Assembly (NCBI RefSeq): GCF_000004075.3
Contig: NC_026659.2
Location: 24,756,272-24,820,271, forward strand
Direction of reading: 5' to 3'
DNA length: 64,000 nucleotides
DNA from: Cucumis sativus
Taxonomy: Eukaryota > Streptophyta > Magnoliopsida > Cucurbitales > Cucurbitaceae
Positions 11,311 to 38,802 of this stretch are shown here, piece by piece (the first letter of the stretch is position 1; each line of letters begins with the position of its first letter). Below the pieces are notes generated by a model. That model ran no database searches and had not been told where the DNA came from. It was given only the letters and a program-made list of their open reading frames with translations. Both the position numbers and the translations under genes were made by a program.

Positions 11311-12432
11311 ATGTTCAAATTTTCCTCCACGTTTCTTCTTCATTTCATCCATAAACGTTCTCTCAATACCCTTTCTACTTCTACATTGCCTTTACCCTCT
11401 GTTTCTACCATCCAATTTCTCACTAATTCATGTGGCCTTTCTTCTGGATCTCCTACTTCCCACGGTCGAAAGCTCCAATTCGATGAAAAAAACATCCAGC
11501 AGTACGAAGCCATTATCGGTTTCTTGAAATCTCATGGATTCGAGAATTCACAGATCGCCAAGTTGGTCTCGAAGCAACCTTCCATCCTTCAATCCAAAGT
11601 ATCCACCAATCTGAAGCCTAAATTTGAGTTCCTCCAGGAAGTCGGTTTCGTCGGTCCTTTACTTCCTAAGGTAATTCTAACAAGCCCTGCGATTCTTCTC
11701 AGGAGCTTAGATTCTCAGTTGAAACCATCATTTCGTTTCATGAAGGAAATGCTTGAACCGGATGAAAAGGTAACTACTGCTATTTGTCGTTATTCAAGGC
11801 TTCTGACTTGTAATATTAAGGGTAATTTTAAATCTATCGTTGATGTTTTGGTCAGTGAAGGAGTACCTTCTAAGAATATAGCCAAAATGATTGCATATAA
11901 GCCTACAACTATTATGCATAAGGTTGACAGAACGATTCATGCAGTGAAAACGGTTAAAGAATTAGGCATTGAACCAGAAGCTCGCATGTTTGTTTATGCA
12001 GTTTTAGTGAGGCTTTCAATGAGTGATTCAACTTGGAAGAAGAAAATAAATGTTATGAAGAGTTTAGGATGGTCTGAGAAGGAGATTTTTACCGCATTTA
12101 AGAAATATCCACTTTATTTAACTTGTTCAGAGGAGAAATTGAGGGATGTTGCAGATTTCTGTTTCAACACTGCAAAGTTGGATCCAGGAAGTGTAATTAT
12201 TTACCCGAAGTTCTTCAAATGTTCAGTCAACGAGCGGCTCCAACCGCGGTACAAAGTTCTTGAGGCTTTGAAGGTGAAAAATCTTCTTAAGAGCAAAAAG
12301 ATTGCGTGGTTGCTTGTAGAAGGGGAGAGAATTTTTTTGGAGAACTATGTTCTTAAGTATTTGGATGAAATCCCAAATCTTATGGACATATACCGGGGCA
12401 ATGTCGTAGCCGAAACCAAATCTGCTCCATAG
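11311..12432 (+). CDS. mTERF-family organellar protein, copy 1
   Basis: Single-exon gene of 373 residues. The N-terminus (MFKFSSTFLLHFIHKRSLNT) is basic and Ser/Thr-rich without acidic residues, a mitochondrial-type (possibly plastid) transit peptide. The body consists of ~30-residue mTERF helical motifs, each with a Pro-x-x-x-hydrophobic core: KQPSILQS, TSPAILLR, RYSRLLTC, YKPTTIMH, KYPLYLTC, IYPKFFKC. mTERF proteins form a right-handed superhelix that binds organellar nucleic acid and affects transcription, splicing or translation. Plants have an expanded set, mostly intronless and often in tandem; this gene belongs to that type, and its target cannot be told from sequence. The start is the ATG conserved at 15706 and 21620. 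Neighbours are three paralogous units downstream on the same strand. Confidence 0.9.
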   Translation: MFKFSSTFLLHFIHKRSLNTLSTSTLPLPSVSTIQFLTNSCGLSSGSPTSHGRKLQFDEKNIQQYEAIIGFLKSHGFENSQIAKLVSKQPSILQSKVSTNLKPKFEFLQEVGFVGPLLPKVILTSPAILLRSLDSQLKPSFRFMKEMLEPDEKVTTAICRYSRLLTCNIKGNFKSIVDVLVSEGVPSKNIAKMIAYKPTTIMHKVDRTIHAVKTVKELGIEPEARMFVYAVLVRLSMSDSTWKKKINVMKSLGWSEKEIFTAFKKYPLYLTCSEEKLRDVADFCFNTAKLDPGSVIIYPKFFKCSVNERLQPRYKVLEALKVKNLLKSKKIAWLLVEGERIFLENYVLKYLDEIPNLMDIYRGNVVAETKSAP

Positions 12433-15705: not shown

Positions 15706-17181
15706 ATGTTCAAAATTTCCTCCACATTTCTTCTTCATTTCATCCATAAACGTTCTCTCAATACCGTTTCTACTTCTACATTGCCTTTACCCTCCGTTTC
15801 TACCATCCAATTCCTCACTAATTCATGTGGCCTTTCTTCTGGATCTCCTACTTCCAAAGGTCGAAAGCTCCAATTCGATGGAAAAAGCATCCAGAAGTAC
15901 GAAGCCATTATCGGTTTCTTGAAATCACATGGATTCGAGAATTCACAGATCGCCAAGTTGGTCTCGAAGCAACCTTCGATCCTTCAATCCAAAGTATCCA
16001 ATAATCTGAAGCCTAAATTTGAGTTCCTCCAGGAAGTCGGTTTCGTCGGTCCTTTACTTCCTAAGCTAATTCTATCGAACCCTGGGATTCTTATCAGGAG
16101 CTTAGATTCTCAGTTGAAACCAACATTTTTTATCTTGAAGGAAATTCTTGGTGAAAAAGGAAATTCTATAAAAAATTCATGTGGCCTTTCTACAGAATCT
16201 CCTTCTTCCGCGGGTCGAAAGCTCCGAATCGATGAAAAAAACATCCAGCAGTACGAAGCCATTGTCGGCTTCTTCAAATCACATGGATTCGAGAATTCAC
16301 AGATCGCCAAGTTGGTCTCGAGGCAACCTTCGATCCTTCAATCCACAGTATCCACCAATCTGAAGCCTAAATTTGAGTTCCTCCAGGAAAACGGGTTCGT
16401 TGGTCCTTTACTTCCTAAGCTAATTCTATCAAACCCTGGGATTCTTATCAGGAGCTTAGATTCTCAGTTGAAACCAACATTTCGTCTCATAAAGGAAATG
16501 CTTGAATCGGATGTAAAGGTAACTACTGCTATTTGTCGTTCTACGTGGCTTCTAACTTCTAATTCCAAGGGTCCTATGCGATCTAACATTGATGTTTTGG
16601 TCAGTGAAGGAGTACCTTCTAGGAATATAGGGAAAATGATTGAATTGAACCCTAGAACTATTACACTAAATGTTGATAGAATGATTGATGCAGTGAAAAC
16701 GGTTAAAGAATTAGGCGTTGAACCAAAGGATCGTAAGTTTGTTCTTGCAGTTAGTGCAGTGGTTTCAAGGAGTGATTCAGCTTGGAAGAAAAAAATAAAT
16801 GTTATGAAGAGTTTAGGATGGTCTGAGAAGGAGATTCTTACAGCATTTAAGAGATATCCACCTTTTTTCAATTGTTCAGAGGAGAAAATGAGGGATGTTG
16901 CAGATTTCTGTTTCAACACTGCAAAGTTAGATCCAGGAACTCTAATTAGATACCCTGTGTTATTCAAGTATTCAGTCGACAAGCGGCTCCGACCGAGGTA
17001 CAAAGTTCTTGAGGTTTTGAAGGTGAAAAATCTTCTTAAGAACGAAAAGAGTGCTCAGTTGTTTTTCCGAGGGGAGAGAGAATTTGTGGAGAATTATATT
17101 GTTAAGCATTTGGATGAAATCCCAAATCTGATGGATATATACCGAGGCAATGTCGCATCCGAAACCAAATCTGTTCTATAG
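15706..17181 (+). CDS. mTERF-family protein, copy 2, with internal tandem duplication
   Basis: Intronless, 491 residues, 118 longer than copies 1 and 4. It has the same presequence (MFKISSTFLLHFIHKRSLNT). Residues from about 39 (NSCGLSSGSPTS) are repeated in frame 118 residues later (NSCGLSTESPSS); at DNA level the repeat is 354 bp, 15820-16173 versus 16174-16527. This doubles the first two mTERF motifs (KQPSILQS/SNPGILIR and RQPSILQS/SNPGILIR). The rest follows copy 4 closely: RSTWLLTS, LNPRTITL, RYPPFFNC, RYPVLFKY. No internal stop or frameshift is present, so a longer superhelix could be made. The two halves are not identical; the first resembles copy 1 (EVGFVGPLLPK), the second copy 4 (QENG-x-VG, RLIKEML). 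Confidence 0.88.
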   Translation: MFKISSTFLLHFIHKRSLNTVSTSTLPLPSVSTIQFLTNSCGLSSGSPTSKGRKLQFDGKSIQKYEAIIGFLKSHGFENSQIAKLVSKQPSILQSKVSNNLKPKFEFLQEVGFVGPLLPKLILSNPGILIRSLDSQLKPTFFILKEILGEKGNSIKNSCGLSTESPSSAGRKLRIDEKNIQQYEAIVGFFKSHGFENSQIAKLVSRQPSILQSTVSTNLKPKFEFLQENGFVGPLLPKLILSNPGILIRSLDSQLKPTFRLIKEMLESDVKVTTAICRSTWLLTSNSKGPMRSNIDVLVSEGVPSRNIGKMIELNPRTITLNVDRMIDAVKTVKELGVEPKDRKFVLAVSAVVSRSDSAWKKKINVMKSLGWSEKEILTAFKRYPPFFNCSEEKMRDVADFCFNTAKLDPGTLIRYPVLFKYSVDKRLRPRYKVLEVLKVKNLLKNEKSAQLFFRGEREFVENYIVKHLDEIPNLMDIYRGNVASETKSVL

Positions 17182-21619: not shown

Positions 21620-22741
21620 ATGTTCAAAATTTCCTCCACATTTCTTCTTCATTTCATCCATAAACGTTCTCTCAATTCCATTTCTACTTCTACATTGCCT
21701 TCACCCTCTGTTTCTACCATCCAATTCCTCACTAATTCATGTGGCCTGTCTTCTGGATCTCCTACTTCCAATGGTCGAAAGCTCCGATTCGATGAAAAAC
21801 ACATTCAGCAGTACGAAGCCATTATCGGTTTCTTGAAATCTCATGGATTCGAGAATTCACAGATCGCCAAGTTGGTCTCGAGGCAACCTTCAATCCTTCA
21901 ATCCAAAGTATCCGACAATCTGAAGCCTAAATTTGAGTTCCTCCAGGAAAACGGGATCGTCGGTTCTTTACTTCCTAAGGTAATTCTATCAAGCCCTGGG
22001 ATTCTTCTCAGGAGCTTAGATTCTCAGTTGAAACCATCCTTTCGTCTCATAAAGGAAATGCTTGAAACGGATGAAAATGTAACTGCTGCTATTTGTCGTT
22101 ATACGTGGCTTCTAACTTATAGTTCCAAGGGTACTCTGCGATCTAACATTGATATTTTGGTCAGTGAAGGAGTACCTTCTAGGAATATAGCGAAAATGAT
22201 TGAATTGAACCCTAGAACTATTGTACAAAATGTTGATAGAATAATTGATGCAGTGAAAACGGTTAAAGAATTAGGCGTTGAACCTAAGGATTTTAAGTTT
22301 GTTCATGCAGTTACTACAGTGCTTTCAATGAGTGATTCAGCTTGGAAGAAAAAAATAAATGTTATGAAGAGTTTAGGATGGTCTGAGAAGGAAATTCTTA
22401 CAGCATTTAAGAGATATCCACCTTATTTAACTTGTTCGGAGGAGAAAATGAGGGATGTTGCAGATTTCTGTTTCAACACTGCAAAGTTAGATCCAGGAAC
22501 TCTAATTAGATACCCTGTGTTATTCAAGTATTCAGTCGACAAGCGGCTCCGACCGAGGTACAAAGTTCTTGAGGTTTTGAAGGTGAAAAATCTTCTTAAG
22601 AACGAAAAGAGTGTTCAGTTGTTTTTCCGAGGGGAGAGAGACTTTGTGGAGAATTATATTGTTAAGCATTTGGATGAAATCCCAAATCTGATGGATATAT
22701 ACAGAGGCAATGTCGCATCCGAAACCAAATCTGTTCTATAG
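21620..22741 (+). CDS. mTERF-family organellar protein, copy 4
   Basis: Intronless gene of 373 residues, colinear with copy 1. The presequence is MFKISSTFLLHFIHKRSLNS, followed by mTERF motifs RQPSILQS, SSPGILLR, RYTWLLTY, LNPRTIVQ, RYPPYLTC and RYPVLFKY. The last third (from KKKINVMKSLGWSEKEI) is almost identical to copy 2, including ETKSVL at the end, indicating recent duplication or gene conversion between copies 2 and 4. A MITE sits about 145-330 bases upstream of the ATG in this copy only, so expression could differ from copy 2. As for the other members, the organellar target is not deducible. Confidence 0.9.
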   Translation: MFKISSTFLLHFIHKRSLNSISTSTLPSPSVSTIQFLTNSCGLSSGSPTSNGRKLRFDEKHIQQYEAIIGFLKSHGFENSQIAKLVSRQPSILQSKVSDNLKPKFEFLQENGIVGSLLPKVILSSPGILLRSLDSQLKPSFRLIKEMLETDENVTAAICRYTWLLTYSSKGTLRSNIDILVSEGVPSRNIAKMIELNPRTIVQNVDRIIDAVKTVKELGVEPKDFKFVHAVTTVLSMSDSAWKKKINVMKSLGWSEKEILTAFKRYPPYLTCSEEKMRDVADFCFNTAKLDPGTLIRYPVLFKYSVDKRLRPRYKVLEVLKVKNLLKNEKSVQLFFRGERDFVENYIVKHLDEIPNLMDIYRGNVASETKSVL

Positions 22742-29941: not shown

Positions 29942-32900
29942 TCATTCTTTTTCAGCTATCACTACGAAAACGTCTCTCAAAGACCACTTCCGTCGCTCAT
30001 TCTTGGCTGGAGGGTTGATGACAGCTCTTTCAGCATTTGCTGAACGATAACCAATTACAATCTCTCTTCGTTGTCGAGCTCGTAAAAGTACTTCATAGAA
30101 ACTCAGCTCCTCACCTTCGCGAAGGTATAGATCAGCTTGCCTTATATGCAATTCATTACCCTGATAATAACAGAAATGCGGCAGGTTATGCGTATGACAG
30201 AGTACGACAGAAAAGATTAAAAAACAAAACTAAAACTACATGTTAGAACGGATATAAAGAGGATATAAATGTTCAGTGCCTATGAGAGATTGAGATGTAA
30301 AAAAAGGTTCATCATTTATCATATGTTCAGTTTTCTCAATGTGGGTTGGGAACACAAGCAATCGTGTTTTTGCTTATGATCATATGCATCTCAGTTCTGA
30401 TTGGAAAGGAAACGTACCTCTTCTGCAAAGAGCTCCTCCAAAACATCATTTATCTGTCGATCCTCAGCCACCATGGCTAAGGCCATACTGACAAGTTCAT
30501 TAGACAAGACATAATCGCTGATTTTTGACATTGAAAGGAGATTTTTAGTTCTTGGATCCAGAATTTCACTTATAATAACAGACTTATCAGAAGCCTGCTG
30601 CATTTCTCCAATCCAGGAGCCTTGTGAGAAACTTCCTTTGTGTGCTGTACCCTTGGCATATCTGACCGGCATACGCTTAGCCTGCCAAAAGCAAAAAATT
30701 TATTGAACAAATGGCCAAATGGAAAGATGAAACCATTGACATATATATTATAAAGAGTAACAGTTTCCATAGATATTGATTCTAGACTATTAGGCTTTCA
30801 GAACCGTGAAGATTCACGTGGGAAGTGCAACGAAATTTTCATGAAAGTGCTAGGATTTATGTCAATGCAACGAATCTGGTTTTGCATCTCTATATGAAAG
30901 AAACTAACCTTTGAAAGGGTATGTACAGATGGAGTCTTAACACTTTAATTTCCATGTTTCTGAATGGAATTTTTTGGCAATCTTTTGCTTATCAACTCAA
31001 ATGAAGATTTTTTCATCAAAACACCAATGAAATTACGTGTTATTTCAGCATTGTAATCAACATGACCCCGAGAAGTGGAATGAGTAGGAAGTATAACATG
31101 ATTCGGGGGGGGGGGGGGGGGGGAAGCAAAAGAAAGGAAAAAGACCATGAAAACAAGAATTTATACCCACATCAAATCTCAAGAGCAGTACCTGAATATC
31201 ACGTATTAACAACAAGGTTGCTAGAGATCTTGAATCAGCCTGAATAGCTGAATCCTCTACAGATTCATCAGCAAGAATCAAAATCTGTACAGATCATGGT
31301 TATGTCACAACAGGATAAAATACAAAGAAGAAAACAACCTACTTGTAACACTAACAAAGTAGCTCTAAATTCATACTTCACTTCCAGGGTGAAAAGAAAT
31401 CACGCTACTCACTGAATCAAATGATTCCAAAGGAAGGCTTTCCAAATGACGCCGAATTACAGCATTTCCCTCACGGTCAACCAAAGATATATTCTCCAAT
31501 CGGCTGATATCAAGACCACCATCAACAAGTTTCTTTTCCCTCTCATTCTCAGGAACATCATTGAACATCCAAAGCTCTGAACCCGGAGCTAAAAATGCAT
31601 CCAATACCTAAAATTGCAGAAACCAATGAGGGCAATAGAGTGCTCACTCTTATAAATAAAGCGGCATGCATGAATTTGTACAAGAAGTGGTGTAATACCA
31701 AAAACTTTTTGATTGAATGAAAATCTGTCTCTCAATATGAGAAGAGATGTTTATTTATAGATGAAATGTATACAAGTAGTTATTGACTAAGTAAGAAAAT
31801 AGAAATAGTAAAACAGTCCTGAGTTAGTATCATTCTACCCCGAGATTGTCCCGAGTTTATATTATACCACCCTGGGTTTGTCCCGAGCTTGTATACATCC
31901 CGAGTTTGTCCCGAGTTATTACATAAAAAAGAAAGGACAAATATGGTATCTATGCTCAGTAGTTGAAATTTGAAAATGAAAAATGTGACAAATGCAACAA
32001 AATGATTATGAATTATGATCATGCCGTGAACGCTAAGACCTGCACCCAAGAAGCACTGGGAGCATGTTCTCAGATCTTAATAACATTACCATAATCATAT
32101 CCTCCATATCTCGCCGCCAACCACACAACAGGATTCTTTCAGCAGATTTTGGAACAATAAAGTCTTTGGGAAGACTTCCCCTCCAGACCTGCAGCATTCA
32201 ACGCCAAGAAGAAATAATTAGGGCTTTAATACAAAGTACTCACCACAATCATATCGTCAATGTCTCTCCTCCATCCACAAAGTAGAATCTTCTGTGGCTT
32301 TCTCGTTGGTCTTGCAATATGAATGAATGATGCTTCTCTTACCTGAATGATCAAATTAATTGCAATATTGTAAGTTTAAATTGTACGGTGTTTTTCTCGC
32401 TTATATCCATTATTATAGGCATCATCCAAGGAAATCTATCAGATCTTCCTTTTTTTCCCTCCTTTTCTTTTCTAGATAAGAACTTTGCCCCTCTCTTTCC
32501 TTCATCCACGAAGTAGAATTTTTTGAGGCTTTCATTCTGGACCTCCCAATATGCAGGTTTCTCTCTCTCTCTCTCTCTCTCAAGATTGCTCTTTGTCAGC
32601 ATAACTTATTTGCCAAATAAATTCAGAAATTTTCCTCATAGACTAAGCTCAGCAGTGACTCTTTATCAATCTAATTCCTTCTTTTGGATTTTGAATTACT
32701 TAATCAAATCCTCCCCCCAACACCCCTCACCTGGCATGACTGTAAAATTCCTAAAGATACATTGGAGTATAAAATACCACTACATGAAAGGAAAAGCAAG
32801 CAATACAGCAACAGAACGTGAATGCCCATTGTATAGAATAAAAAAGTTCCTACAGGGAAATGAAAGCACCGTAGGTAAAGGAGCTGGAGCGTAAGTATCA

Positions 32901-35069
32901 TCATCTTCTGCTATAACAAGAACTTCATCACCTTCTTCCAGGATATACGAGTCTTCAGGATTCAGTACAATTTTTCCACCTCGTGATGCAACCTTGATTC
33001 CACAAGGAATCGCATCAGGAAAGCTAATCAATACGTCCTCAAATTGCATACCATTCAACTGTGGCCATCTTTTGATGTAGAATTCACAGTTTTCAAAACC
33101 CAGGATATCTTCCCAAATCTACAACCGTATGAAAAGAAATACACAATTTGCTCATAAAAGATATAAAAAGAAAATATTTGAAACAGTAAGGCCGAACATG
33201 CGTGAAGAGAAGCACGAAGACAATATTTTATTTTATATTAAAACATAAAACAGGCTCGTTTGACTCAATAAAAACCTGAGCAAGTCCTGGCTGTCGAGCA
33301 CATTGAATCATTAGACGTCCAATCACATCGTGAGCCACTACAGTTTCAACAAGCTCTCCACCAACAAGTTTAACAAGAACCTCATTATCAAGATCACTAA
33401 GTTCCACTACTATGTGTCCTCTCAGACCTTCTTTAACTCCAGTTAGGCTTAAAACAGTTCTCAATGCACGGGCATCACTCTGCAAATTACACGTATCAAA
33501 TAAAAATCAAGTATCATAGCTCAATGATACCAATCCACTTACTTGATCAGCATTTCCGTCCTCAGCAATGACAATAATTGCACGGGCCTTTGACACCGAG
33601 ACCTGTATGTATGGTGTCAGAAAAAATCCTAATGAAAATAATGATATGCACAATTCCAAGTTTACGGTATTCATGGACCAGAAAGACATTGTTAGGTTTA
33701 ACAAATTCTGAGTTGTGCATTTTCGAGGGTGAAAACTTCTAGACAGATGGAAGAAAATCTCAGCACCACAAAGTTGGTGTATTACATAGAAGTACCTTCT
33801 TCAAGTCTGCCAGGATTAATGGACTTCCAGTTCTGCATATAACAGAGGTTCCCTTAAAATCAAACTCCATTTTAGCAATGTCAAGTTCCATTTCTTCTTT
33901 GTCTCGTTCAGCCATCACCACAACAATTCCTCCTCCCAAGCTCTCATTGGCTATAGAAATCTGATTCAGAAGTGACCCCTAGATCCACGTAATAGCATTG
34001 CACATAGAAAAGGAAGGAGAAAAAAATCAATTACAATGTCCTATAAATACTTTACCAGATTTTGCATCAGGTAATTCTTTAAAAGCATAAACCATGCAGA
34101 TTAATTGAATAAATTTTAATAAATGAAACATCATCATAAGATGAGAAGAAATCAAATTTTACCAGTTTGTCGCTCCATCCAAGGATCAAAGTGTGATCTT
34201 GTTCAACAACCTCACTTCTTCCTTTTCTAAGTGAGTCAAACTTTTCAGATATTGAATCGGATACAAGGCCAAGCATCATAGCAAATATTAACATCCCACC
34301 GAAGCTAACAGAAACTGATACTAGCCTTGGACCAAAACCTTCAGAGTTTGCATGATTTCCAGAATCAGCCACGTACGTCCAAGATAGCCAAAGACAATCG
34401 ACTAAGCTATCATCTGTCACTCCAAATAGTGCTAAACCTCCCAGCATAATCAATAGTAGAGTTGCTATCAACAATGCCAGTGGCTTAGCATATGGGTGGA
34501 TAGAGAAAAAGACATCCACCTTATACGCAAGTCGTTTATTGAGTGAAACTTCTTCCAAATTATGATCCAACGATCTCGATTTAGAGACATAGTCAATGTA
34601 CTTAAGGATAATGATAGGAGCAAACAGCAGTGTAAGGGATGCGATTGACGCTAAAGTTTTTAATTTTTTATCTGTAAAAACATCAGTAACTTCGTCTGGT
34701 GAACGTACATCATCTTCATTTCCATCGTCAAACAAATTGCAAACTCGTAATTTGCTGTTTAGATTAGAAATCCGGGTCTGAAAGTGGAAGAAACTTACAT
34801 TGAAGAACCAAGCAGCACATGCAGTGGGAAAGCTCGTTGAATTCATAAAAAAATAACAGTAAAAATAATTATGGAATTAGAGTCAAACGTCCACCGAAAT
34901 CACAATTGGAAAACTCAGTACCTCTAAATTGTTGACTTGCTCCTGTAAATATAAGTTTTCATGCACGATCGTTGCAAAACTCACGACAAAAATCTACACA
35001 AATACGAGCATGTCAACTTCAAATCGTTAACAACCGAATATACGTCGAGAGATAAGGAAATAGAGGAAT

Positions 35070-35109
<40 letters not shown>

Positions 35110-35539
35110 CCGATGCTGTAATAGCCAAAAAAATCCATCGAACTTTCAGCGAACTGTCAATCGACTTAGACAAACGAGAAGTATCAGAGACTTTCTTAAC
35201 GGAGCTCGAGACGTCCGGCAGCTCCAACTTCCGTTTGGAAGAAAATTCAACTTCGGAACTTTTAAGCGAGAGATCACTACGACGATCAAAATCAAATCTC
35301 CGTCGAGTACGAGCAAACTTGACATCATTAGTGATGGTTGAAGAAGAATGCGAATCGGAAATAGAGGACGAAGTCTTGCGATACCTATGGTAATCGGTGT
35401 AACGCCGAGACAAGCGAGAAGTATCGGAAAAACGGCGGATGTAGTTGGGAGATTTGGCGGGGTGAGAGTGTACGAAGGATTGTGGAGGGAAGAACCAGTC
35501 CCTGCTCGAGGAAGGAGATGATTCAGAGTCAAGGGACAT
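29942..35539 (-). CDS. CASTOR: ion channel CASTOR (CASTOR/POLLUX/DMI1 family)
   Basis: Twelve constitutive-pattern exons plus one alternative: 35539-35111, 34993-34922, 34777-34163, 33978-33796, 33602-33543, 33479-33276, 33118-32870, [32342-32244 or 32188-32090], 31607-31413, 31284-31192, 30681-30418 and 30160-29942. With either alternative exon the protein has 893 residues. The N-terminus is Ser/Arg-rich (MSLDSESSPSSSRDWFFP); transmembrane segments lie near 134-153, 209-230, 265-288 and 318-341. The filter ADSGNHA at 304-310 carries the Ser described for CASTOR rather than the Ala of DMI1/POLLUX. The C-terminal half is the conserved cytosolic RCK-like region (ILGWSDKL, VVMAERDKEEMELD, NPEDSYILEEGDEVLVIAEDD). 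CASTOR is a nuclear-envelope cation channel needed for calcium spiking in root symbiosis; non-nodulating plants keep it for mycorrhiza. The end WSLRDVFVVIAEKE is typical of the family. Confidence 0.96.
31105..31123 (+). repeat. G19 homopolymer in a CASTOR intron
   Basis: Nineteen consecutive G residues on the plus strand, C19 in the CASTOR pre-mRNA, in the intron between 31192 and 30681. Its length may be a sequencing or assembly estimate. Confidence 0.85.
31691..31923 (-). mobile_element. short solo-LTR-like element in a CASTOR intron
   Basis: The 233-bp segment starts TGTAATACC and ends GTTATTACA, so TGTAATA/TATTACA forms an inverted end pair. On the minus strand it contains four or five short 'ctcgggacaa' repeats, then a TATA-type ATCTATAAATAAAC, then TTCATTCAATCAAAAAG, an order typical of small Ty1/copia LTRs (U3 repeats, TATA, R/U5). 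No target duplication was recognised. It lies between the second alternative exon and exon 9. Confidence 0.5.
32090..32188 (-). other. CASTOR: CASTOR alternative exon 8b
   Basis: 99 nt, phase 0 at both ends, AG acceptor and GT donor. It encodes VWRGSLPKDFIVPKSAER followed by ILLCGWRRDMEDMIM (33 residues). The SLPKDF and PKSAERIL words are like the published legume CASTOR sequence, so this version looks ancestral-type. It joins in frame to exon 7 (..PAPLPT) and exon 9 (VLDAFLAPGSELW). Confidence 0.85.
32244..32342 (-). other. CASTOR: CASTOR alternative exon 8a
   Basis: 99 nt, phase 0 at both ends, AG acceptor and GTGAGT donor. It encodes VREASFIHIARPTRKPQK followed by ILLCGWRRDIDDMIV (33 residues). 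It matches exon 8b at about 14 of 33 positions, nearly all in the second half. The first half differs completely. No stop or frame break is present. Confidence 0.85.
32560..32581. repeat. (CT)n microsatellite in a CASTOR intron
   Basis: About eleven CT units on the plus strand inside the intron between exon 7 and exon 8a; the pre-mRNA has (AG)n. Confidence 0.85.
35076..35106. repeat. (GA)n microsatellite at the CASTOR intron 1 donor
   Basis: A run of GA units on the plus strand ends about four bases from the exon 1 donor site, so the transcript reads GTTTTC followed by (CU)n immediately after exon 1. Confidence 0.85.
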
Positions 35540-37767: not shown

Positions 37768-38802
37768 ATGCAAGTCCCTTCAGAAGGAGAAAATGCTTTG
37801 GCTACGGTTGGTCCTCGGCCAATGGAATGGTCAACCGTTCCATATAATCCTCCTCAAGGACCTGGGCCGAATGTGAAACAGCGAACATCTAGTCTGGAAT
37901 CACCAATCATGTTGTTGTCAGGCCATCAGAGTGCCATATATACATTAAAGTTCAATCCAGATGGAAACGTGGTTGCCTCTGGGTCTCACGACAAGGAAAT
38001 TTTTCTCTGGAATGTACATGGGGATTGCAAGAATTTTATGGTTTTGAGAGGGCATAAGAATGCAGTTCTAGACCTTCATTGGACTGTTGATGGATCTCAG
38101 ATAGTTAGTGCCAGTCCCGATAAAACATTGAGAGCATGGGATGTTGAAACTGGAAAACAAATTAAGAAGATGGCAGAACACTCTTCATTTGTCAATTCAT
38201 GTTGCCCCACGAGAAGAGGGCCGCCACTAATTGTCAGTGGATCAGATGATGGAACTGCAAAACTTTGGGATATGCGTCAAAGGGGCGCTATTCAAACATT
38301 CCCGGATAAATATCAGATTACAGCAGTAAGTTTCTCAGATGCATCAGACAAGATCTTCACAGGTGGAATCGATAACGATGTTAAGGTTTGGGATTTGCGC
38401 AAAGGTGAAGTTATGATGACACTTCAAGGTCATCAAGATATGATAACTGGTATGCAGTTGAGTCCTGATGGTTCTTATCTCCTCACTAATGGAATGGATT
38501 GCAAGCTCTGCATATGGGACATGCGCCCATATGCACCTCAAAACCGATGTGTAAAGATATTTGAAGGGCACCAACATAACTTTGAAAAAAACCTACTGAA
38601 ATGTAGCTGGTCTGCTGATGGTAGCAAGGTCACTGCAGGTAGTTCAGATCGGATGGTTTACATATGGGATACAACGTCTCGACGAATATTGTACAAGCTT
38701 CCTGGCCATACTGGATCTGTCAATGAGTGTGTCTTCCATCCCAGTGAGCCTATTGTTGCATCTTGCGGTAGTGATAAACAGATATATCTTGGGGAGATTT
38801 AA
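37768..38802 (+). CDS. SNRNP40: U5 snRNP 40-kDa WD40 protein (SNRNP40/Prp8-binding)
   Basis: Intronless coding region of 344 residues, the normal length. After a short tail (MQVPSEGENALATVGPRP) with PMEWSTVPYNPP come seven WD40 repeats forming one propeller. Their GH and WD marks include LLSGHQSAIYTLKFNPDG, FLWNVHGD, VLRGHKNAVLDLHW, RAWDVETG, KLWDMRQRG, KVWDLRKGE, TLQGHQDMITGMQLSPDG, CIWDMRPYAP and YIWDTTSRR. The unusual H-N-F-E-K-N-L-L-K-C segment before repeat six is characteristic of this orthologue group. The protein sits in the U5 snRNP beside Prp8 and acts in the nucleus in pre-mRNA splicing. ATG choice follows the conserved N-terminus; the only intron seems to be in the leader. Confidence 0.93.
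   Translation: MQVPSEGENALATVGPRPMEWSTVPYNPPQGPGPNVKQRTSSLESPIMLLSGHQSAIYTLKFNPDGNVVASGSHDKEIFLWNVHGDCKNFMVLRGHKNAVLDLHWTVDGSQIVSASPDKTLRAWDVETGKQIKKMAEHSSFVNSCCPTRRGPPLIVSGSDDGTAKLWDMRQRGAIQTFPDKYQITAVSFSDASDKIFTGGIDNDVKVWDLRKGEVMMTLQGHQDMITGMQLSPDGSYLLTNGMDCKLCIWDMRPYAPQNRCVKIFEGHQHNFEKNLLKCSWSADGSKVTAGSSDRMVYIWDTTSRRILYKLPGHTGSVNECVFHPSEPIVASCGSDKQIYLGEI

Follow-up and report, generated by a model that had tools for sequence, protein, structure and literature searches.

In a 64,000-nucleotide stretch of the Cucumis sativus genome (hereafter the window, with its first letter as position 1), the gene of CASTOR, a nuclear calcium channel of plants, carries two adjacent segments, 8a and 8b, either of which could serve as its exon 8. 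This raises the questions of whether the gene gives rise to two alternative channels with one segment used at a time, how old the arrangement is, and which part of the protein it would change.

The CASTOR gene of cucumber and its two versions of exon 8

The assignment of the gene to CASTOR, made in an earlier note on this DNA, is borne out by the cucumber protein, which matches the Lotus CASTOR gating ring (6o6j) with 1030.6 bits vs 900.4 bits for Medicago DMI1/POLLUX (7vm8). The Castor_Poll_mid domain is present, and in a tree of 17 proteins with exon 8 removed the cucumber protein groups with Lotus CASTOR and not with POLLUX. All 13 exons, spliced by hand, have lengths that are multiples of 3 and GT/AG borders. 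The features are as follows.

29942..35539, minus strand: CASTOR coding span; 13 exons when both 8a and 8b are included, from hand splicing
35539-35111, 34993-34922, 34777-34163, 33978-33796, 33602-33543, 33479-33276, 33118-32870, minus strand: exons 1-7
32870..33118, minus strand: exon 7, shared; RCK1-RCK2 linker, first half, plus the counterparts of Lotus E552, D553 and D554 (cluster II Ca2+ ligands)
32244..32342, minus strand: exon 8a; 33 residues, 605-637 of P0006; 18 variable residues (Lotus 565-582) followed by the common beginning of RCK2
32189..32243, minus strand: 8a-8b intron, 55 nt; a stop is met on read-through
32090..32188, minus strand: exon 8b; 33 residues, the type of the Lotus CASTOR structures and of 12 legume rows
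31413..31607, minus strand: exon 9, shared; in frame after 8a as well as after 8b
32342-32244, 32188-32090, 31607-31413, 31284-31192, 30681-30418, 30160-29942, minus strand: exons 8a to last

Exons 8a and 8b are of equal length (99 nt each), both in phase 0, and lie 55 nt apart. Splicing confirmed what the earlier note had read from the letters, namely two 99-nt phase-0 segments with AG acceptors and GT donors (ATTCAG/GTA...GTG/GTGAGT for 8a and CTGCAG/GTC...ATG/GTAATG for 8b), each joining in frame to exons 7 and 9, and it reproduced the two 33-residue translations given there. Whether 8a, 8b, both or neither is included, the reading frame from exon 7 into exon 9 is kept and closes with a single terminal stop; a channel of 893 aa results from 8a alone or 8b alone, and one of 926 residues from both. 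The spliced 8a form is identical over its full length to a protein already on record (P0006, 'ion channel CASTOR isoform X2 [Cucumis sativus]').

The two exons agree well in their last 15 codons (34/45 bases in common, with 7 silent codon differences) and hardly at all in their first 18, where 14/54 bases are in common, which is about chance level. The first 18 residues had been called completely different; nearly all of them do differ, and V1 and S5 agree (2/18). Judged by sequence, 8a and 8b are homologous exons, and the near-chance similarity of the first 18 codons together with the silent differences in the shared part indicates that the duplication is old rather than recent.

The POLLUX paralogue (G000:C5:24643499-24648105) lies on the same contig as CASTOR, about 0.14 Mb away. 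A search for a duplicated exon there came out negative: this locus has one exon 8, and a second copy was rejected because the remaining matches to 8a or 8b have E values of at least 0.59. POLLUX/DMI1 (7vm8) is like CASTOR in having one 33-residue segment at the same place, and unlike it in that the segment is a single exon in the cucumber locus and falls with 8b in the exon tree described below.

Several other features were noted in and around the gene. In intron 10, before exon 11, the minus strand has 19 C in a row (31105-31123). Intron 8b-9 contains a dispersed repeat (31685-31816) that matches 14 other places in the genome, on several contigs, at 76-81% identity over about 80-140 bases; one further place matches the stretch neighbouring this repeat. 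A WD40-repeat open frame adjoins CASTOR (37768-38802, plus strand), and three open frames of the mTERF family lie elsewhere in the window on the plus strand (11311-12432, 21620-22741 and 15706-17181), the first two of which, at 373 aa each, are 78% identical (292/372) and form a tandem paralogue pair.

Distribution and age of the exon pair

Three protein searches, from which the best 120 of 1062, 1126 and 1133 hits were taken, gave 179 distinct proteins, which were classed by a simple script rule on the residues preceding the shared half. Among these proteins from the matches listed, 89 have 8a alone, 13 have 8b alone and 77 have both, counts that do not measure usage since the searches were aimed at 8a. 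The 77 comprise 68 in which the two exons are cleanly joined, 5 in which the intron is translated, 3 with a shortened 8b, and 1 with 8a twice plus 8b. In three models (P0012, P0090 and P0157) 8a is joined to a point 17 residues inside 8b, which looks like a gene finder dodging the tiny intron. An exact repeat of 8a stands before 8b in P0005 from Xanthoceras sorbifolium, which may reflect either a new duplication or a mistake in the assembly; P0146, also from Xanthoceras, has a single 8a.

Exon 8a was found in 166 of the 179 proteins from the matches listed, from gymnosperms to eudicots, and a duplication restricted to cucumber was accordingly rejected. By the names listed, it is present in cucurbits, Fagales, Rosales, Malpighiales, Sapindales, Malvales, grape, Cornus, Ericales, Lamiales, Solanales, Asterales, Heracleum, Ranunculales, Persea and Tasmannia, and among monocots in grasses, Asparagus, Vanilla, Curcuma and Ananas; rice, poplar, citrus and potato have it as cucumber does. 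Ginkgo (P0050) and Cryptomeria (P0123), both gymnosperms, have the two exons, as do angiosperms. The earlier note had suggested a search of CASTOR loci in other species; among the proteins listed here, 8a is found in Ginkgo, Cryptomeria, magnoliids, monocots and many orders of eudicots. Its statement that family proteins contain only one such segment fails at the level of annotation, as the 8a isoform is already a database record and such isoforms are annotated in many species. No name of a fern, lycophyte or bryophyte occurs among the matches listed (best 120 per protein search).

In a tree of 56 exon sequences, which with only 33 columns is weak in detail, 25/25 8a exons, those of Ginkgo and Cryptomeria included, lie on one side of a 100/100 branch. 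Among distinct versions, mean identity in the variable part is 0.66 within 8a, 0.66 within 8b and 0.13 between them, and in the shared part 0.95, 0.91 and 0.75, respectively. The Ginkgo and Cryptomeria genes that carry the pair group with CASTOR (branch 99/97) in the tree of 17 proteins without exon 8, where Cryptomeria was flagged as a long row and its placement is less sure, and a second Ginkgo gene with a single exon (P0131) falls on the POLLUX side of that branch. Since the gymnosperm genes bearing the pair group with CASTOR and the 8a exons form one lineage, the pair was very probably present in CASTOR before the living seed plants parted.

Among the rows listed, the legumes, in which the channel has been studied most, are an exception to this wide distribution. 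When a Lotus gating ring carrying a consensus 8a was used as query, all 12 legume rows among the best 120 matches listed had 8b only (Lotus, Abrus, Spatholobus, Glycine, Vigna and Cajanus); Abrus and Spatholobus were checked as Papilionoideae, to which Lotus, Glycine, Vigna and Cajanus also belong. The thirteenth protein with 8b only is a POLLUX-like protein of Ginkgo. When an 8a exon was put into three of these legume proteins and they were compared locally with a similar query, they scored 508-515 bits vs 463-469 without it, and outscored the other rows compared. Because legume proteins score higher with 8a, annotated legume 8a proteins should have topped the list, and the 8a form thus appears, judged on annotated proteins, to have been lost in papilionoid legumes. 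A tree built from 21 proteins after removal of exon 8 places P0174, a protein with 8a alone, outside the legumes (100/99). Lotus japonicus CASTOR (6o6j, 6o7a, 6o7c) is orthologous to the cucumber protein, with the same RCK1-linker-RCK2 layout and an exon 8 of the 8b type; it differs from cucumber in that Lotus and the other legume rows listed are without the 8a type.

Probable exclusive use of the two exons

We consider it likely, from the short intron between them (54-66 nt) and its predicted branch point 26 nt from the donor, that 8a and 8b are used in a mutually exclusive manner. Steric exclusion by a short distance from donor to branch point, as in alpha-tropomyosin, offers a possible mechanism. 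As there, the intron between the two exons is tiny and a likely branch point lies close to the upstream donor; unlike there, the CASTOR branch point is a motif-based prediction from the following feature.

32217..32221, minus strand: candidate branch point CTAAT, from a motif scan; its A at 32218 is intron nt 26, 29 nt before the intron end

This is the sole YTRAY motif 12-60 nt before the end of the 8a-8b intron, though the scan is a weak predictor of branch points, as it gave no motif in 5/12 CASTOR introns. In human introns, according to the available part of PMC11291888, impairment reaches about 90% or more when donor and branch point are less than 47 nt apart; the candidate A at nt 26 compares with a human limit near 46-47 nt, which may not hold in plants. 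No figure for the minimum intron length of plants was found in the literature searched. Intron 5 of CASTOR, at 63 nt, must be spliced, which puts 55 nt not much under an intron length that cucumber does handle. The short intron is also seen in read-through models from other species, being 54 nt in Cucurbita pepo, Populus trichocarpa, Eragrostis and Phragmites and 66 nt in Papaver, and in all five models the translated intron starts with VS and ends with Q, which fits GT...CAG. Given this geometry, a very short intron with a likely branch point near the 8a donor, 8a and 8b would not readily be joined, and splicing would yield either 7-8a-9 or 7-8b-9.

The names of the annotated proteins bear on the same point. 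Among the 179 proteins, 54 show 'isoform X' in the name as listed, and these comprise 42 with 8a alone, 5 with both exons cleanly joined, 3 with both and the intron, and 4 with 8b alone (legumes). The other 125 comprise 47 with 8a alone, 63 with both cleanly joined, 2 with both and the intron, 9 with 8b alone, 3 with the shortened join and 1 with the repeated 8a. We read the both-exon models as the work of gene finders that chain every in-frame exon. P0174, which has only 8a, is an 805-residue frame on a contig of 2,939 bases that is most likely a spliced transcript.

If the exons were not exclusive, the 926-residue form with both would be a regular product and 8a a cassette exon. This would agree with the fact that 'both' and 'neither' stay in frame, with the 77/179 proteins from the matches listed that have both exons, and with the five clean both-models named 'isoform X', for example Nicotiana attenuata X5, N. 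sylvestris X7 and Solanum stenotomum X4. Joining the two would, however, demand removal of the 55-nt intron with its predicted branch point at nt 26, and five models retain that intron while three others skip part of 8b. The product would also double the first strand of RCK2 (CGWRRD twice), probably a poor fit to a closed fold, and 8a stands alone in 42 of the 54 'isoform X' proteins, so that we hold regular joint inclusion to be quite unlikely. A different view of 8a, as a decaying or unused copy or as a recent copy from POLLUX, draws on its absence from the 12 legume rows listed, by which it is dispensable somewhere, and on the 61% in common between cucumber 8a and POLLUX exon 8. Against this, 8a keeps an open frame and is conserved in species as far apart as Ginkgo, rice and cucumber, and 8a-only proteins are on record. 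Decay of one exon across species, which the earlier note had named as evidence against its reading, left no sign in 8a or 8b in the proteins compared, the absence of 8a from legume rows notwithstanding. The divergence of its variable part from 8b (14/54 bases in common) and the 7 silent differences in the 15 shared-part codons speak against a recent copy, and an origin from POLLUX was rejected because the three POLLUX exons fall with 8b, not 8a, at 100/100 in the exon tree. This account is highly improbable.

Exclusive use could alternatively be imposed by regulators, either splicing factors or RNA structure, and not by the short intron. The acceptors and donors of both exons look usable, a tissue-specific choice would need regulators anyway, and the 63-nt intron 5 is spliced. 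On the other side, no inverted repeat of at least 12 was found over 31608-32869, from intron 7 to the end of intron 8b-9, and the short 8a-8b intron recurs in five other species, grasses and Papaver among them; regulators in place of the short intron seem to us rather unlikely. The full statement, that an old tandem exon duplication places one exon in each mature mRNA, that the choice is made exclusive by geometry, and that the two straps alter the coupling of the RCK domains, is in our judgement probable, and is put no higher because the branch-point motif is a weak predictor.

The exchange in the calcium sensor and its possible meaning

The claim that either exon can be read in frame, and that the two forms differ where the chain enters the second RCK domain, is supported by mapping onto the Lotus structure, in which the cucumber residue number is taken as Lotus + 40 and exon 8 corresponds to Lotus 565-597. 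In the available part of Kim et al. (PMC6697748), the RCK1-RCK2 linker of CASTOR (553-580) is described as 'well-structured' and as wrapping the C-terminal subdomains, tying the RCK1 C-lobe and C-terminal subdomains to the RCK2 N-lobe 'like a rope'. On that numbering, the 18 residues that vary (Lotus 565-582) make up the linker's second half plus two residues. The same source gives E552, D553 and D554 as cluster II Ca2+ ligands of Lotus CASTOR and describes how R589 and R590 sandwich H463 and how R590 bridges to D442 at the cluster I Ca2+ site. D553 and D554 are encoded by exon 7 and are common to both isoforms; R589 and R590 map to the shared half of exon 8, where they are kept in 80/81 and 81/81 distinct 8a versions, respectively, and in 49/49 and 49/49 distinct 8b versions. 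With the ligands in exon 7 and the arginines in the shared half, both isoforms keep the Ca2+-site residues and differ in the strap. The two straps would leave the Ca2+ ligands in place and change the coupling of RCK1 to RCK2, and it is plausible that the swap alters Ca2+ dependence; channels with different Ca2+ dependence could in turn produce different nuclear Ca2+ spiking.

The STREX exon of the Ca2+-gated channel BK offers a parallel, as it too sits in the RCK1-RCK2 linker and, according to the part of PMC12346439 available to us, shifts activation; it differs from the CASTOR pair in being a 58-residue insertion, not a swap, and its sequence is unrelated. In animal ion channels, mutually exclusive tandem duplicated exons are a known kind (PMC9741552, in part), and the CASTOR exons resemble them in being tandem, homologous, of one length and ancient. 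Unlike them, the CASTOR pair is in a plant gene and its exclusivity is predicted.

The CASTOR isoforms are already in databases under automatic names. The literature searched on CASTOR gave no description of the exon pair, though the classic rice and Lotus papers may mention it; none was found in the available portions of PMC8890496 and PMC7676867 (maize castor), and those of PMC9114929 mention soybean DMI splice variants without specifying them. Mutually exclusive exons are little described in plants as a whole. A Picea MADS-box case concerns first and last exons, as far as the accessible text of PMC6243048 goes, and the authors of Kassiopeia, in the text seen of PMC3923563, stated in 2014 that none was described for Arabidopsis in PubMed and predicted that the mechanism is widely used.

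The CASTOR pair sits in the Ca2+ sensor of a channel that is needed for mycorrhiza and nodulation. The CASTOR structures and the mutant rescue in the available part of PMC6697748 concern legume proteins, whose listed relatives have one form only, so that a part of the CASTOR repertoire, which rice, poplar, citrus, potato and cucumber have, may have escaped study. A tentative extension, which we think unlikely as a whole, is that CASTOR is a two-state channel throughout seed plants, in which a splice switch older than the parting of Ginkgo and angiosperms sets the Ca2+ dependence of nuclear spiking, and that papilionoids gave up one of the two states while the common symbiosis pathway was being adapted to nodulation. 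If this were true, the picture obtained from Lotus would be half of the channel's repertoire.
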